A stretch of DNA of 64,000 nucleotides from positions 32,110 to 96,109 of IMG/VR virus record IMGVR_UViG_3300037054_000079; one strand, written 5' to 3'. The notes below the pieces were generated by a model, which saw only the letters and a program-made list of their open reading frames with translations, was not told the DNA's origin and did not search any database. Position numbers and translations under genes: made by a program. This document shows positions 2,939 through 63,150 of the stretch, piece by piece (position 1 is the first letter of the stretch; every line of letters begins with the position of its first letter). The DNA comes from a virus.

Positions 2939-3298
2939 TTACCGCACGATCAGGATGGGTGAGTGCTGGCGATGTGACCGGCGGTCACGCGGCAGCGGCG
3001 AGTCGGTGTCGCCTCTGCGAGAGCGCAGGTTTCCCCACCTGTCAAAGATGGCGGAGCGGTCGCGGATTTTGGCGGTGCCGTCTTGACCAACGCTCTTACT
3101 GTGTCGGTGACGGAACGAGTCGCCTACGTCTTGCGAATTGTGGAGCTTGCCAGTGCGCCCGTTGCGATCAAAGTCTTCGAGTTCGTTGGTGTGGGTACGG
3201 TGCTTGAACCCCATCCCGAGCGTCTGTTCCGGTTGCCCGGCTGTCGCCGGGATTGTGACCGCTGCCAAGAACGCGGCGGCGAGAATTACTTTGAGCAT
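2939..3298 (-). CDS. Small secreted protein
   Basis: 119 residues. MLKVILAAAFLAAVTIPATAG is a classic Sec signal peptide with likely cleavage after ATAG, and AAAGGA sits ahead of the ATG. The mature part is hydrophilic, with Arg/Asp/Gly stretches (FDRNGRTGKLH, FDRWGNLRSRRG) that look like two imperfect copies of one motif. The product is probably exported to the periplasm; its role is unknown. Confidence 0.7.
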   Translation of the reverse strand: MLKVILAAAFLAAVTIPATAGQPEQTLGMGFKHRTHTNELEDFDRNGRTGKLHNSQDVGDSFRHRHSKSVGQDGTAKIRDRSAIFDRWGNLRSRRGDTDSPLPRDRRSHRQHSPILIVR

Positions 3299-3531
3299 TG
3301 GGTAGTCCTTTCGTTGTGAACTAGCGGTGAAGCATTTTTCGAAATGAATGTCAAGGTCTGCCATCTCTTGAGTGGATCACAGCGGGAGCATTCGACGCAC
3401 GATCCCGGCTCCGCAACGTAGCGTTCGACGGCGTGCCCGTGACGACATGGTAGGTCGGTGAAGTATCAAGGCAGTCCAAGAGCGCGCGCCTCGTCGCGGG
3501 TGATGTGGTCAAGCATACTGCTGCCTAGCAT
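3286..3531 (-). pseudogene. Cysteine/histidine zinc-finger ORF interrupted by an in-frame TGA
   Basis: An ATG at 3531 with an upstream GGAG opens a frame that reads 21 residues (ending DEARALGLP), meets TGA at 3466-3468, and continues in the same frame as YFTDLPCRHGHAVERYVAEP followed by SCVECSRC. The stretch after the stop closely resembles a common phage zinc-binding motif of the type YFTGxPCxxGHxxxRY with a following CxxC, in which a residue such as Arg normally precedes YFT. One base change (CGA to TGA) would explain it. It may be a decayed gene, a sequencing error or a readthrough product. Its end overlaps the start of the secreted protein gene. Confidence 0.5.
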
Positions 3532-3573
3532 TTCGTTTTATCTCCTGTCAAGGGTTCGATTTCATTTCGTTTT

Positions 3574-3600
3574 ATTTTAATTTCGAAGTATCACTTTCAA
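3574..3600 (-). promoter_or_regulatory. Possible promoter for the leftward operon
   Basis: On the minus strand TTGAAA (3600-3595) and TAAAAT (3579-3574) are separated by 15 bases, inside an AT-rich stretch just upstream of the first leftward frame. The spacing is shorter than ideal, so this is only a candidate. Confidence 0.3.
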
Positions 3601-3905
3601 AAACTTGCGAGAGCGCGGCGCAAACTGCATATGACGTTTTCGCGATGGCATAGGAATTTGGTCCTCACCCCGTAGCTCATGGGGTCCCTCCTATTGCATT
3701 TCGAAACCAAGCAACTGACCCCAACCTTCACTGACGGCGGCATATCTTACTTGTGCCTGCGCTGCAATGCTTTCTCGTTGTCAACAGCAATCGTTGTGCA
3801 TCGTTAACGCACAGCGTCGAGCGGCTGCCACAACTACACTGTGTTGTCAAATCACATCTAACTACATGGTTAATAAGAACAATTCGAACTATTCATAGTG
3901 AGTAA

Positions 3906-48920: not shown

Positions 48921-48998
48921 TGGTCAGGGCGACAGGATTTGAACCTGCGACCTCCTGTATCCGAGACAGGCGCTCTAACCAAACTGAGCTACGCCCTG
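48921..48998 (-). tRNA. tRNA-Pro (anticodon CGG)
   Basis: Cloverleaf on the minus strand: acceptor CAGGGCG/CGCCCTG with seven perfect pairs, U8-A9, D stem GCTC/GAGC, anticodon stem CCTGT/ACAGG with loop CTCGGAT, so anticodon CGG; T stem GCAGG/CCTGT with loop TTCAAAT. A73 and an encoded CCA follow. C1-G72 with A73 is the bacterial proline identity set. Base 37 is A where proline tRNAs usually have G. It reads CCG codons. Confidence 0.9.
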
Positions 48999-58031: not shown

Positions 58032-60506
58032 TTATCTCACCCATGAGGGCTTACGCCCGGCGGAAGAAGATTGCTGACTGATCGCATAACTCGTGAGCTT
58101 CTCCGCCACGTCCTGCGGTGCGTGTAAGCCGTCGAAGTGATGGCCGTCAATGCTCAAGTTCAAAACTGATCCGGCCTTTTGTGCCCCGCTCGCTGCCGGT
58201 CGTCCAACTCCGGCGAGCACCGGGCCGCCCATGGCGAAGCCGGGGAACTGCATATTGTTTAGTCTGTCGAACACATCCGAACCGTAAGCGCGCACAGCGG
58301 CGGCGCGCATGACGAACTCACCGTTCGAGAGTCGCGCTAAGATGCTGTCGCTTGTGCCACTGCCGGGTCCACGAATAGCACCGCCGTCAGCGTTACCGCT
58401 AACGGGAGCGGAGGCGGGCGATTGCGGTTGCGATTTCGATTGCGGTTCACTCCCGGCGGCGTCTATGATCCTTTTTAATGCGGCGGCGGCTGCCTGAGCC
58501 TGTTCTGAGAGTGCCGAAAGCGGCGCGATGGTCGCCTTGGCTTTTTCGCCAAGGTCGGAAACGGCGGCTGTCGCTGGTGCTTCCGGTGCTGACACTTTCG
58601 GTGCTGGCGCTCCCGATGTCGGCGCTGGCGCTCCCGACGCTGGCGCTCCCGACGCTGGCGCTGGCGCTGCGCCGTCCCGGAGCTTTTGCCAGTCAATCCC
58701 GTCAAGGACACTCATATGATCCCTGAATTGGCTTAATGATCCAGCGGCTCCGATGGCTTGCTCTTTGAGGTCCCCGAGCGGCTTGCTGTCCTCGGGCTTA
58801 ACCACCGGAGGCGCGTTGCCATCGACGTTCTGCCGTCGCTGCGCAGCCAACTCATGTAGCAGATTGGTGAAAAAACCCGCCGCTCCGCCAGTGCCGCCGG
58901 GGATGACATCTTTCTTATCTGCAACTACTTTCAGAACATCGGACCGAGCTTCCGCCCCTAAACTGGCGACCTTCGACACAATATCTGTGAGCTTCTGCAA
59001 CTCCGCGCCCTGTTGGATAAAGGCTGGATTTTTCTCTCCCTCTGAGGTTACTTTTTTAATGTCCAGATTTTCGAGGGCTTTCACAATCTCCGCGCTGCCC
59101 TGTCCTTGACGCCCGCCACCCCTTTGCGCGATCATGGCGTTCTTATCGGCTTCGGTCAATCCGCTCCGTGGATTTTGAAACAGCTTGGCCAGTTCGGCCA
59201 TGAAATCTTCCGGCGCAAATTTGCGACCTTCATCCCGCGCGCGCTGCTGAGCCTGCTCTTGAACGGCCTGATTTTTGTTCCGGGTTGATATATCGTCGAG
59301 ATGCCCGGCAAGCGGACCTTCACCACGCATACCCCCTTGTATGAGTCGGGGGTCTTTCAGCATCGTTTCGTATTGTTTTTCGGCAGCCTCTTTCACGTGC
59401 GTCAGCGCCATAGCAAGCGCGTTGGCAGCACGCGCCGGAGCAGTGAGGCTTTCGGCGAGGTCCTTGGTCTGTTTTTGAAGTGCTTGGTCGTAGTGAAGTT
59501 GTGCTTTCTCGACCGGAGAAACCGCTGTTTGATCCTTCGTCTGTTTCAACATCGAGTCGGAAAGAGACTGAATGCTTTTTGCAAGCGACTGCTGCGCTTG
59601 TTCCTGTTTCAAGGCTAAGTCGCGTGGGGCAGTCTCTTGTTTATAATCCGCGTTCTTTGACGCAAGCTCCGCCGAGTACACACTCTGTTGCGCGCGACGG
59701 ATTTGCAGTTGTTTATTCGCCTCTTTATTCGGCGTGCCGCTTTGCAAATCCTGTAGCCGCTGTTGTGCTTCCTCGACACCGAGGCTCGCTGACGTAGCGC
59801 CGAGATCGGCAGCGGCAACCGAGGTATCGCGCATCGCGTCGGCTAGAGCATTGACGGATGCTTGGACACTTAGCGCGGCGGAGCCAACAGAAAGCATATC
59901 ATTGGAGGCTGTCGATGCCGCGTCCGCAGCGGCAAACTGCAAAGTATGATAGGCGTCGGCGACCGATATAATATCTTCGCGAACTTTGAGTGCTTGATCT
60001 TGCGCAACCTCTGCGTTTTTGGCCTGTGCATCTTGGACCTCAAGATTAGCCGATACAACACCTTCGGCGGCTGACTCTTGCACAGCCCCGGAAGTACGCA
60101 TTATCCGATTAACTTCGGAGACCGAGTTGGCTACGCTAGTTGTCATACGCTGGACGGCGCGTTCCACCTGTTGCGGACCGACTCCAAACTTTGCGAAGGC
60201 TGCTTCCAGTCCTTGCATACCCGCTATATTAGTGCCGAAGGACTCTCCGAGGTCTTCCAACTTGACTCCGGTCTCAGCCGTTTTCTCCGCGAGTGTCGCT
60301 AACGCGACGCCCATAGCTGTAAGAGCGATGACTATACCGGCGGCCCCCTTGCCAAACAGCGCAAGGCCGCTTGATCCGCTTTCCGCAGCTGTGGCTATTG
60401 ACTCGAACGCACTCTCGGCCTCGTGCGCCATCGTGACAAAGGTCGCGCCGACATCACCGACGCCTTCGACGGATATGTGTTGAACAATGTCTTCAAGATC
60501 AGCCAT
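58032..60506 (-). CDS. Tail tape measure protein
   Basis: 824 residues. Long helical and coiled-coil regions, a hydrophobic stretch near residue 55-75 (AAGIVIALTAMGVALATLAE), an Ala/Pro/Gly/Ser low-complexity segment at about 630-665, and the C-terminal SDSILARLSNGEFVMRAAAV, the common tape measure ending. It sets tail length; about 0.15 nm per residue gives a tail near 120 nm. Placed after the chaperone genes as usual. Confidence 0.85.
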   Translation of the reverse strand: MADLEDIVQHISVEGVGDVGATFVTMAHEAESAFESIATAAESGSSGLALFGKGAAGIVIALTAMGVALATLAEKTAETGVKLEDLGESFGTNIAGMQGLEAAFAKFGVGPQQVERAVQRMTTSVANSVSEVNRIMRTSGAVQESAAEGVVSANLEVQDAQAKNAEVAQDQALKVREDIISVADAYHTLQFAAADAASTASNDMLSVGSAALSVQASVNALADAMRDTSVAAADLGATSASLGVEEAQQRLQDLQSGTPNKEANKQLQIRRAQQSVYSAELASKNADYKQETAPRDLALKQEQAQQSLAKSIQSLSDSMLKQTKDQTAVSPVEKAQLHYDQALQKQTKDLAESLTAPARAANALAMALTHVKEAAEKQYETMLKDPRLIQGGMRGEGPLAGHLDDISTRNKNQAVQEQAQQRARDEGRKFAPEDFMAELAKLFQNPRSGLTEADKNAMIAQRGGGRQGQGSAEIVKALENLDIKKVTSEGEKNPAFIQQGAELQKLTDIVSKVASLGAEARSDVLKVVADKKDVIPGGTGGAAGFFTNLLHELAAQRRQNVDGNAPPVVKPEDSKPLGDLKEQAIGAAGSLSQFRDHMSVLDGIDWQKLRDGAAPAPASGAPASGAPAPTSGAPAPKVSAPEAPATAAVSDLGEKAKATIAPLSALSEQAQAAAAALKRIIDAAGSEPQSKSQPQSPASAPVSGNADGGAIRGPGSGTSDSILARLSNGEFVMRAAAVRAYGSDVFDRLNNMQFPGFAMGGPVLAGVGRPAASGAQKAGSVLNLSIDGHHFDGLHAPQDVAEKLTSYAISQQSSSAGRKPSWVR

Positions 60507-60508
60507 GG

Positions 60509-61051
60509 TTATTCCCCGCCCCGGAACTCGGAGTCAAAGATTGAGCGAAAGTTGCCCATCACACTCTGCACGATCTCGTTTGTGTGGAAAAGTTTTGGTA
60601 TCGTTACGCTCTCGATGCCAAAATATCGCGGCAGTTTATCGGAGATTGCAAACAAGAGGGGGTGCCCGTACTTGCGCGGGTACTTGGCCGAGAATAGGCC
60701 GCCGTATTCACTCGGGCGGATTTTCTCCGCATCCGTCCCGGTAATTGGTATCCATAAAAGCGGATCGCCGTGAATGACGCCGCCGGTTTCGAACAGGGCG
60801 AGAGCCGGATCGCCGCCAATCAAACTCACTCTCATATTGCCGAGTGATCCGGGTAGCACTTTGACACCGATGTCCGTTGTCCACGCGCCGCCAAAACCTG
60901 CGCTTGTAATGTCGTCTTTGACCTGATCCAAGATCATCGACGCGGCCATATTTGTCGCCGCCGTGATCGCGCGGTCAAAGCGGTCTTTGAGACCCGCTAA
61001 GTTTCGCTGAAACTTTTTGGCGACTCCGGCCCCATCGTAGATAAATCTCAC
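60509..61051 (-). CDS. DUF6441-type tail protein
   Basis: 180 residues from the GTG that overlaps the chaperone stop (GTGA). RFDRAITAATNMAASMILDQ, VKVLPGSLGNMRVSLIGGDP and PRKYGHPLLFAISDK match a family of alphaproteobacterial phage tail proteins. Located between chaperone and tape measure. Exact role unknown, probably tail assembly. Confidence 0.65.
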   Translation of the reverse strand: MRFIYDGAGVAKKFQRNLAGLKDRFDRAITAATNMAASMILDQVKDDITSAGFGGAWTTDIGVKVLPGSLGNMRVSLIGGDPALALFETGGVIHGDPLLWIPITGTDAEKIRPSEYGGLFSAKYPRKYGHPLLFAISDKLPRYFGIESVTIPKLFHTNEIVQSVMGNFRSIFDSEFRGGE

Positions 61052-61200
61052 TGGTCTCTCTCCCACATCTCAAGCTGTTGCTTGATCGCTTTACCGTCGC
61101 CGCTCGCGCTGAGCGAACCAATCGCGAGTTGACCGTGTAGATCACGTTCTTGTCGTCGAGCAGCGAGAAACGTGTAGGCCGCAATCTGGCGAGGGGTCAG
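61048..61200 (-). CDS. Second tail chaperone reading frame (-1)
   Basis: 50 residues: LTPRQIAAYTFLAARRQERD onward to KAIKQQLEMWERDQ, like the small C-terminal part of tail assembly chaperones. Its first codon is CTG overlapping the stop of the preceding gene (CTGA). The frame is -1 to it, and GGAAAC l directly precedes the stop, so a -1 frameshift making a fusion is the likely expression route. No other start fits. Confidence 0.6.
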   Translation of the reverse strand: MTPRQIAAYTFLAARRQERDLHGQLAIGSLSASGDGKAIKQQLEMWERDQ

Positions 61201-61673
61201 TTTCCAGACGGCAGCGGTGTCGTGTCCAGCGGCAATGAGGGACTCAATGGCGGCTGCGAGTTCGTAGCCATCGCCCTTCCAAAGTTGACGGATGCGGCTA
61301 CGCTGGCGAGACCCGCGATCCGTTCCACGAAAGGGCCGAAGCCATCCTTGAACGTCAGCCGCATGACCGCTTCCAAGATATCGAGTTGAGTACCTACTGC
61401 TAGTTTAGCGGCGATCTGCTCTGTCGGTTCGTCTCTCGGTTTTCCGGTCGCACTTGCGATCATCGCCTGTAGCAACTTGGGGGCCGCCGCGAGCATCTCA
61501 TTCATATTGACAGCGCCGGGAGCCAGCCATTTTCCAGCTTCCGGAAATCGTTGCAGAAGATCAATCAAGCTATCAACTGATAGCCCGTACACGTCGAGCA
61601 TTTGATCGCCGACTGGCACTCGCTCATGCGGAGCGCCTATGTCGGTCAGGCTTAGTCCCTGTTCTTGAGCCAT
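61197..61673 (-). CDS. Tail assembly chaperone (pre-tape-measure protein)
   Basis: 158 residues. LSVDSLIDLLQRFPEAGKWL and AAKLAVGTQLDILEAVMRLT, FKDGFGPFVERIAGL form a helical chaperone of the gpG type; a Pro/Ser-rich end leads to the stop. Together with the -1 frame it corresponds to the gpG/gpGT pair found between tail tube and tape measure in siphoviruses. Confidence 0.68.
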   Translation of the reverse strand: MAQEQGLSLTDIGAPHERVPVGDQMLDVYGLSVDSLIDLLQRFPEAGKWLAPGAVNMNEMLAAAPKLLQAMIASATGKPRDEPTEQIAAKLAVGTQLDILEAVMRLTFKDGFGPFVERIAGLASVAASVNFGRAMATNSQPPLSPSLPLDTTPLPSGN

Positions 61674-61744: not shown

Positions 61745-61760
61745 CATCGCCGTATTGATG

Positions 61761-61807
61761 TTGCGCGAACGCGAACTTAGTTGCGCGAACGCGAACTTAG
61801 TTGCGCG
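61761..61807. repeat. Tandem 20-bp repeat at a gene end
   Basis: TTGCGCGAACGCGAACTTAG occurs twice in tandem (61761-61780, 61781-61800), plus a partial third copy that holds the last codons of the gene ending at 61797. On the minus strand each copy repeats the stop region (CGCAACTAA). Confidence 0.7.
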
Positions 61808-62231
61808 TGGGGCGCAGCGCGATAGGCAATTTCGAGGGATTGATGCCGACACGAGCCGCCGCCCGCGCGAGTTGATCCGTTTGCGACTGTGCAGCCGGGG
61901 CCGACTTAGCAGCCGGATCGGGGGCCGGGGGCGTCGCCGGGGCTGCCTTAGCAGCCGGGGGCGTCGCCGGGGCCGCCTTAACTGCCGGAGCGGCCTGTAC
62001 GGATGCCTGAGCGGGAACATAGGGAGCTTTGACCGGGGGCGGAGCCGCCTTTTGTTCATCGGAGGCTTGCACAGGCTTTTGGGCTTGAAGGAAGCCGGGC
62101 AGGCCGGTCGCGCCTTGCGCTACTTCGTTCTTGAGTTCGATGATCCGCCCGGCGAGGACCGCGACTTCGGTCGGGTCTGTCTCGGCATCCAGCTTGGCTT
62201 CGACGGCGGAGAGTTCGGTTTGAAGGTCCAT
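61797..62231 (-). CDS. Coiled-coil protein with Ala/Pro linker
   Basis: 144 residues behind GGACACTCC. Residues 1-40 are a heptad-type helix (LQTELSAVEAKLDAETD); the middle is a repeated KAAPATPPA low-complexity stretch; the end is a short basic helix. It lies between tail tube and chaperone genes. The role is unknown. Confidence 0.55.
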   Translation of the reverse strand: MDLQTELSAVEAKLDAETDPTEVAVLAGRIIELKNEVAQGATGLPGFLQAQKPVQASDEQKAAPPPVKAPYVPAQASVQAAPAVKAAPATPPAAKAAPATPPAPDPAAKSAPAAQSQTDQLARAAARVGINPSKLPIALRPTRN

Positions 62232-62583: not shown

Positions 62584-63150
62584 TTAGTACGGCTTCGGTG
62601 AGTTCGGCAGCGACGCTTGCGCAGTACCGAAAGTCGCGAGTTGCTGGTCGTACAGCACGTCGCCTTCGAGGTCGATGGTGCCCCACGTGTTGCCGATCAG
62701 GCTGAGAGCCTTGTTCGGCGAGAGCTTCACGAGCGGGAAGTTGACGGTCCAGATCGGGCCGATGTCGTTGGTGCCGACGAACTGGACCGCTCCGTAGATG
62801 ACCGGATTGGCGAACACGTCGATCACATCCGGCGACGGCGATGGGCCGCCCGAAGGCAGACCGAGCAGCGCGAACCCAAGGTTGCGCGCCGTAAATTCCT
62901 CAAGAACCATCGTGAGGGAGCCGGAGATTTCGGTGACAGCGGTGAAGTCCTTGACCTTGACGCCGGTCCGCGAACTGTAGTGATCGAGTTGCGTGACTTT
63001 CGCCATGAACTCGAAGGTCGGGCAGTTGCCTGCATCGACGAAAGCGGACTCGCCAAGAAGCTTGATCGAGATCACGCCCTTGCCGATGTAATAGTTGCCG
63101 ATGTTCGGCGAAATCAGTGAGCCTTCGACAAGTTCGTTTCCAAGAGGCAT
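62584..63150 (-). CDS. Major tail tube protein
   Basis: 188 residues. NYYIGKGVISIKLLGESAFV, DAGNCPTFEFMAKVTQLDHY and KDFTAVTEISGSLTMVLEEF match tail tube proteins of siphoviruses; the rest is a beta sandwich. It is followed by a hairpin and the chaperones, the standard order. It builds the tail tube. Confidence 0.78.
   Translation of the reverse strand: MPLGNELVEGSLISPNIGNYYIGKGVISIKLLGESAFVDAGNCPTFEFMAKVTQLDHYSSRTGVKVKDFTAVTEISGSLTMVLEEFTARNLGFALLGLPSGGPSPSPDVIDVFANPVIYGAVQFVGTNDIGPIWTVNFPLVKLSPNKALSLIGNTWGTIDLEGDVLYDQQLATFGTAQASLPNSPKPY

Follow-up and report, generated by a model that had tools for sequence, protein, structure and literature searches.

How does a conserved reading frame that overlaps a phage tail gene, and lacks a conventional start codon of its own, come to be translated? 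The question is raised by a 64,000-nucleotide stretch of viral DNA (hereafter, the window; bases 32110-96109 of a viral record 96,109 bases long), in which two frames of the minus strand overlap upstream of a tape measure gene. The model for such an arrangement is phage lambda, whose G and G-T proteins occur in a ratio near 30:1 and contact the tape measure protein through G and the major tail protein through T (PMC5009743). The initial annotation proposed a fusion of this kind and placed its junction at the stop codon of the first frame, where the second frame was said to begin at a CTG and GGAAAC was regarded as a plausible slip site. From comparison of the window with its relatives, we conclude that the locus is very probably a lambda G/G-T-type tail assembly chaperone pair, with the -1 slip at a different site, the heptamer CCCTTTC.

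Two overlapping frames in a tail gene cluster

The two frames and their predicted joint product are as follows.

61673..61197, minus strand: ORF G, the 0-frame tail assembly chaperone, 158 aa, with ATG at 61673 and TGA at 61199..61197
61329..61048, minus strand: T part in the -1 frame, 93 aa after the slip, with TGA at 61050..61048 and without an ATG, GTG or TTG start
61673..61051, minus strand: predicted G-T fusion, 115 aa (61673..61329) plus 93 aa (61329..61051), 208 aa in all

Relative to ORF G, the -1 frame is open from 61404 to 61048 on the minus strand, and the list of ORFs in the window holds none of at least 50 aa in this frame that starts with ATG, GTG or TTG. The initial annotation was thus right in assigning the second frame to -1 and in finding no normal start for it.

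ORF G matches the Pfam family PF23789 (Pre_tape_measure) over residues 8-128 (E 1.1e-15, 58.2 bits, cut-off 27), and its relative in contig L002 likewise scores over the curated cut-off (41.8 bits). ORF G also matches phrog_5260, a tail protein family (E 5.5e-12), and, more weakly, phrog_11703, annotated as 'tail length tape measure protein' (E 5.8e-6); the latter label is probably a misnomer, because the RefSeq record of Burkholderia phage AH2 labels its own G and G-T in the same way. The T part matches phrog_19318, of unknown function, weakly (E 0.0027). PDB sequence searches with the G and T parts yielded nothing usable. The AlphaFold models are of moderate quality (mean pLDDT 79.1 for T and 78.3 for G), and the PDB fold search gave no match at E <= 0.001 for either part (best E 2.7 for T and 0.14 for G).

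The neighboring genes with family matches are the following.

62584..63150, minus strand: major tail protein with an Ig-like domain (phrog_807, E 9.9e-25)
60509..61051, minus strand: gene after T, weakly similar to DUF6441 and HK97-gp10; probable start GTG 61051, with a longer version from GTG 61066 in the ORF list
58032..60506, minus strand: tape measure protein, 824 aa (phrog_3547, E 2.9e-20)

Read along the minus strand, the major tail protein gene is followed by two small ORFs that match no family, then by G/T, the DUF6441-like ORF and the tape measure gene. Both matches of the gene after T fall below the Pfam cut-offs (DUF6441, 22 bits against 27; HK97-gp10, 14.9 against 21.4), and among the tblastn matches listed for the tape measure protein, annotated tape measures align over 9-13% of its length. 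The gene order and the families fit a tail assembly chaperone pair, G/T lying between the major tail protein and tape measure genes as in G/G-T-type loci. The gpG/gpGT-like fusion that the initial annotation considered likely is well supported by this position, by PF23789 and by the homology of the G part to proteins of AH2, Loktanella and Vibrio phages that is described below.

Relatives of the locus

Scans of IMG/VR with the proteins of the window and their alignments identified 25 contigs, all with both frames; their names carry 23 different dataset numbers. Upstream of the slip, ORF G is 39-58% identical to 16 relatives (alignment A5). Counts of nonredundant loci refer to 22 sequences, L013, L029, L052 and L053 being left out as near-identical to retained sequences in the compared stretches. 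The codon alignment, the anti-Shine-Dalgarno test, the T alignment and the consensus fold comprise 18 sequences, assembled before L051-L058 joined; A5 comprises 17, without L032, which starts inside the gene.

One gene split into two frames, by faulty sequencing or by a recent disabling indel, would look just like this layout in a single genome. Such an origin is extremely improbable here, given that the two-frame layout recurs in all 26 sequences with their many dataset numbers, that both frames are constrained in turn (see below), and that the published AH2 pair is laid out alike.

Outside IMG/VR, relatives are sparse. In the phage collection, tblastn gave no match for the G and T parts of the window itself (thresholds E 0.01 and 0.1) or for the T part of L030 (E 1). 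With the G part of L031, 11 records were found, AH2 and Loktanella being counted twice; only AH2 fell below E 0.01 (E 4e-4), and Loktanella phage pCB2051-A, six Vibrio phage records and one Mycobacterium phage followed at E 0.04-0.7. A profile search of genome contigs with alignments A1 and A5 confirmed no relative, hence no prophage or host, and the lineage of the window is known here only from IMG/VR contigs.

An invariant slippery heptamer in the middle of the gene

Within the overlap, the window contains a single heptamer of the form X XXY YYZ in phase with ORF G.

61335..61329, minus strand: slippery heptamer C CCT TTC, 0-frame Pro114-Phe115, read in -1 as CCC TTT

The heptamer lies mid-gene, 43 codons before the 0-frame stop. 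It is identical in the window and all 25 relatives (26/26; 22/22 after removal of redundancy), so that, as in G/G-T-type pairs, the overlap holds a conserved slippery heptamer in phase. Additional in-phase XXXYYYZ heptamers occur in four of the 22 loci, one in each, and none is shared between loci. The presence of a heptamer is by itself weak evidence, since chance occurrence is not rare: when overlaps of the same length were recoded synonymously at the codon usage of these loci, 829 of 5000 recodings contained some in-phase XXXYYYZ. The argument rests instead on invariance across relatives, and even there the count of 26/26 overstates the independent evidence, because the relatives share ancestry and the counts ignore kinship. 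The scans did not select for the heptamer codons: the patterns derived from the T alignments lie outside the heptamer, and the A5 pattern covered Gly-Pro but with degenerate codons.

Conservation extends to the choice of synonymous codon. The proline of the heptamer is encoded by CCT in 18/18 aligned sequences. This codon is uncommon in these loci, where it accounts for 14% of proline codons; over the 90 codons preceding the heptamer, 6 of 83 proline codons are CCT, and at two other conserved proline columns it was found in 0/17 and 1/17 sequences.

In the phage set of PMC10885494, all four bases are allowed at each of X, Y and Z, which places CCCTTTC within the known heptamer form. Among the literature matches listed, there was no phage tail paper that names CCCTTTC or CCCUUUC as a slip site. 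In mycoviruses, CCC_UUU_C has been named as the site of a proposed +1 shift (PMC9029208). One further candidate report was discarded, the letters occurring only in a primer in the matched portion of PMC10748352.

A fusion could also be generated by slippage of RNA polymerase instead of the ribosome. Some bacterial genes that contain long runs of A or T are known to undergo transcriptional slippage; the runs in CCCTTTC are just three bases long, and we assign this route an almost negligible probability.

Coding constraint changes frame at the heptamer

Upstream of the heptamer, mean column entropy is 1.20 bits at the wobble position of the 0 frame and approximately 0.5 at the remaining two. Downstream of it, in the compared block, the high value moves to the wobble position of the -1 frame (1.22 against 0.33-0.49 elsewhere), and mean pairwise identity there is 0.72 in the -1 frame against 0.41 in the 0 frame. 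From this shift in entropy and the difference in identity, it follows that coding constraint lies on the 0 frame before the heptamer and on the -1 frame after it. The 0-frame stop falls within the compared downstream block in two of the 22 loci, and the part of G beyond the slip varies among relatives from 27 to 51 residues.

Alignment of the T parts (A4, 18 sequences) shows where the -1 product becomes conserved. Residues 2-10 after the slip are variable and linker-like; conservation begins at about S11 (61299) and is most pronounced in the GxGYE block (61275 on). Between the upstream -1 stop and this block, ATG, GTG and TTG are absent from the -1 frame in 26/26 sequences. In eight of the 22 nonredundant loci, a -1 stop is only 3-4 codons from the heptamer, so that there ribosomes must enter the -1 frame beyond this stop.

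It is conceivable that T is made separately from a non-canonical start in the -1 frame, either the CTG at 61200 or an ATC at the SRIR motif. At about the position of this motif, an ATC is indeed present in the -1 frame of the window and 13 relatives (14/26), but it is missing in the other 12. No sequence of the 26 has a CTG in the -1 frame before the GxGYE block, and the CTG of the window lies further on, inside another conserved motif, W-K-L-T-P-R. Internal initiation would, in addition, leave the invariant heptamer unexplained. Taken with the absence of the usual starts, these observations make separate initiation very improbable, and entry into the T frame by slippage at CCCTTTC is the reading that we retain.

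The stop-proximal sequence is an improbable junction

The sequence at the end of ORF G, on which the initial annotation had focused, is as follows.

61205..61197, minus strand: GGA AAC TGA with CTG at 61200..61198; 0-frame stop region, not a conserved slip site

The description of these bases was accurate: the minus strand reads TCT GGA AAC TGA CC, and the CTG (61200..61198) overlaps the TGA (61199..61197). Their interpretation does not hold. The -1 frame does not begin at the CTG, being open from 61404 and encoding a protein that is conserved from S11, and the CTG marks no boundary, being Leu44 of the T part within W-K-L-T-P-R.

A -1 slip at T GGA AAC, immediately before TGA, would join the full 158-aa G to the portion encoded after the CTG. 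A stop immediately after GGA AAC suits this proposal, as does A AAC, a slippery A-site tetramer. Published work on phages KL1 and Colossus, moreover, predicts GGGAAAC as their slip site. Yet T GGA AAC does not conform to X XXY YYZ, as it breaks the XXX in the P site. No heptamer of the lambda type (GGGAAA; GGGAAAG in lambda itself) adjoins the 0-frame stop, and stop contexts vary among relatives: GGAAACTGA is found at the 0-frame stop in just 4 of the 26 sequences, the stop falls anywhere from 27 to 51 codons past the heptamer, and the relative L004/L009, with the same gene pair, reads AAG CTT ACC there, with no CTG, GGAAAC or TGA. A slip at GGAAAC would also leave untranslated a -1 frame that is conserved already 75-100 nt upstream. 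We therefore consider this junction very improbable. On the aligned sequences, the CTG is an internal leucine codon, GGAAAC is not a conserved slip site, and the initial annotation was correct about the family and mistaken about the junction. The first base of the favored site, CCCTTTC, lies 130 bases 5' of that of GGAAAC.

Comparison with known phage systems

The closest described system is gp56/gp55 of Burkholderia phage AH2 (Casjensviridae), a published predicted -1 frameshift pair at AAAAAAG (PMC3483164). The profile of the G part aligns with the 0-frame proteins of AH2, Loktanella phage pCB2051-A and Vibrio phage vB_VhaS-MS03 (hhalign 98.2%, E 2.7e-14), the match ending at residue 111, just short of the slip site. 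The T profile matches the T part of the Vibrio phage (hhalign 93.4%, E 2.5e-7) and gave no significant match to that of AH2 (hhalign 1.7%).

AH2 and the window thus share a homologous G part, the location of G/T upstream of the tape measure gene and a predicted -1 shift at about the same position; in both, the 0 frame continues beyond the slip, by 18 residues in AH2. They differ in the heptamer, AAAAAAG in AH2 and CCCTTTC in the window, in the T parts, and in the gene between T and the tape measure gene, which AH2 lacks and the window has. MS03 and pCB2051-A resemble the window in the G part, although the links from single-sequence tblastn are weak (E 0.3-0.4), and they also have an in-phase AAAAAAG in place of CCCTTTC. 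In all three phages (L064, AH2; L065, pCB2051-A; L066, MS03), AAAAAAG occupies aligned Lys-Lys columns of alignment A6, within about one codon of the position of CCCTTTC when the alignment is extended by eye from a shared LTF motif.

Burkholderia phage KL1 offers a different comparison. Its gp18/gp19 pair has a predicted slip site GGGAAAC directly before the stop, and a tail gene lies between T and the tape measure gene in KL1, HK97 and SPP1 (PMC3483164). KL1 is therefore like the window in having a -1 pair followed by such a gene and unlike it in the stop-adjacent GGGAAAC, the very pattern that the initial annotation expected in the window. The likeness to lambda, where a -1 slip also makes a minor extended chaperone, is one of presumed function, and the lambda slip occurs near the 3' end of G (PMC5009743), as opposed to mid-gene in the window.

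In the records of two of these phages, the annotation around AAAAAAG is incomplete. In pCB2051-A (3153-3470), the -1 frame that follows AAAAAAG carries no annotation; in vB_VhaS-MS03 (3342-3626), the last part only of the -1 frame is annotated, as a short hypothetical protein. Neither record annotates a fusion.

Candidate stimulators of the shift

Upstream of the heptamer, the window contains one candidate stimulator.

61351..61336, minus strand: Shine-Dalgarno-like stretch TCAAGGATGGCTTCGG, with 9 bases between AAGGA and the heptamer; possible stimulator

The 16 nt that precede the heptamer contain Shine-Dalgarno-like 4-mers in 14 of the 22 loci, compared with 308 of 1609 background windows; in these 14 loci the words sit 7-10 nt upstream of the heptamer, and they are absent from the other eight. 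Of 18 loci, 9 pair with the anti-Shine-Dalgarno sequence better than 95% or more of their synonymous recodings do, under the assumption of an E. coli-like anti-Shine-Dalgarno that may not be that of the host. These patterns make a Shine-Dalgarno-type stimulator likely in the gene family. The stretch in the window itself pairs no better than its synonymous recodings (0.66) and is an unproven candidate in this phage.

For a conserved or unusually stable RNA structure 3' of the heptamer, no support emerged from folds of 11 of the 26 sequences or from a consensus of 18. The fold downstream of the heptamer in the window has z-scores of 0.01 (83 nt) and -0.64 (51 nt), z-scores are mixed over the 11 folded sequences (12 folds), and the consensus fold shows almost no covariation. 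A consensus pairing of heptamer bases with GGAAAGG of the conserved W-K-G codons was set aside: both sides change in one of its ten pairs, and we judged it a by-product of invariant codons.

Proposed mechanism and implications

Most ribosomes would read ORF G to its stop, yielding the 158-aa G protein. At ..GGC CCT TTC G.., a minority would slip back by one base, the P-site tRNA-Pro moving from CCU to CCC and the A-site tRNA-Phe from UUC to UUU; both the slippage and its efficiency are inferred. Slippage on X XXY YYZ keeps pairing for both tRNAs. The heptamer and the two frames together predict that the slipped ribosomes would continue in the -1 frame to 61048 and produce the 208-aa G-T. If lambda is a guide, G may coat the tape measure protein and the T portion of G-T may bring in the major tail protein. 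For the wider family, we see about an even chance that AAAAAAG (AH2, Loktanella and Vibrio phages) and CCCTTTC were exchanged at an ancestral protein position, with simultaneous slippage of the Pro and Phe tRNAs in the CCCTTTC lineage helped by Shine-Dalgarno-like sequences rather than by 3' structure.

The kind of system is already well known; what is added here is a further member, from a lineage with CCCTTTC. Gene callers that need ATG, GTG or TTG would miss the 93-aa T part, and the fusion corrects the gene model. The proposed mid-gene position of the slip illustrates how stop-proximal sequence can mislead about where a tail-chaperone shift occurs, and the 26 sequences with an invariant heptamer, set against AAAAAAG in related phages, amount to a compact natural experiment on slippery-site exchange.

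Additional observations on the locus

The hexamer GGGAGG is present 24-29 nt 5' of the heptamer, farther upstream than the Shine-Dalgarno-like words, in 8 of 18 upstream stretches (L010, L014, L015, L022, L023, L027, L028 and L030). The sole tRNA gene in the window (48921-48998, minus strand) encodes a tRNA-Pro whose CGG anticodon would decode CCG, the most frequent proline codon of the related loci, but not CCT as used in the heptamer.

In the window, the probable start of the gene after T (GTG 61051) overlaps the T stop as GTGA. Among 20 sequences, the context of the T stop is GTGA in 10 and ATGA in 4, an overlap that suggests translational coupling of T and the next gene. Similar ORFs follow T in L002, L004, L005, L010, L015 and L016 (by eye). 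Upstream of ORF G, inspection by eye revealed two head-to-tail copies of the 20-base unit gttgcgcgaacgcgaactta (plus strand) at 61760-61799, at the 3' end of an Ala/Pro-rich ORF (61797-62231).
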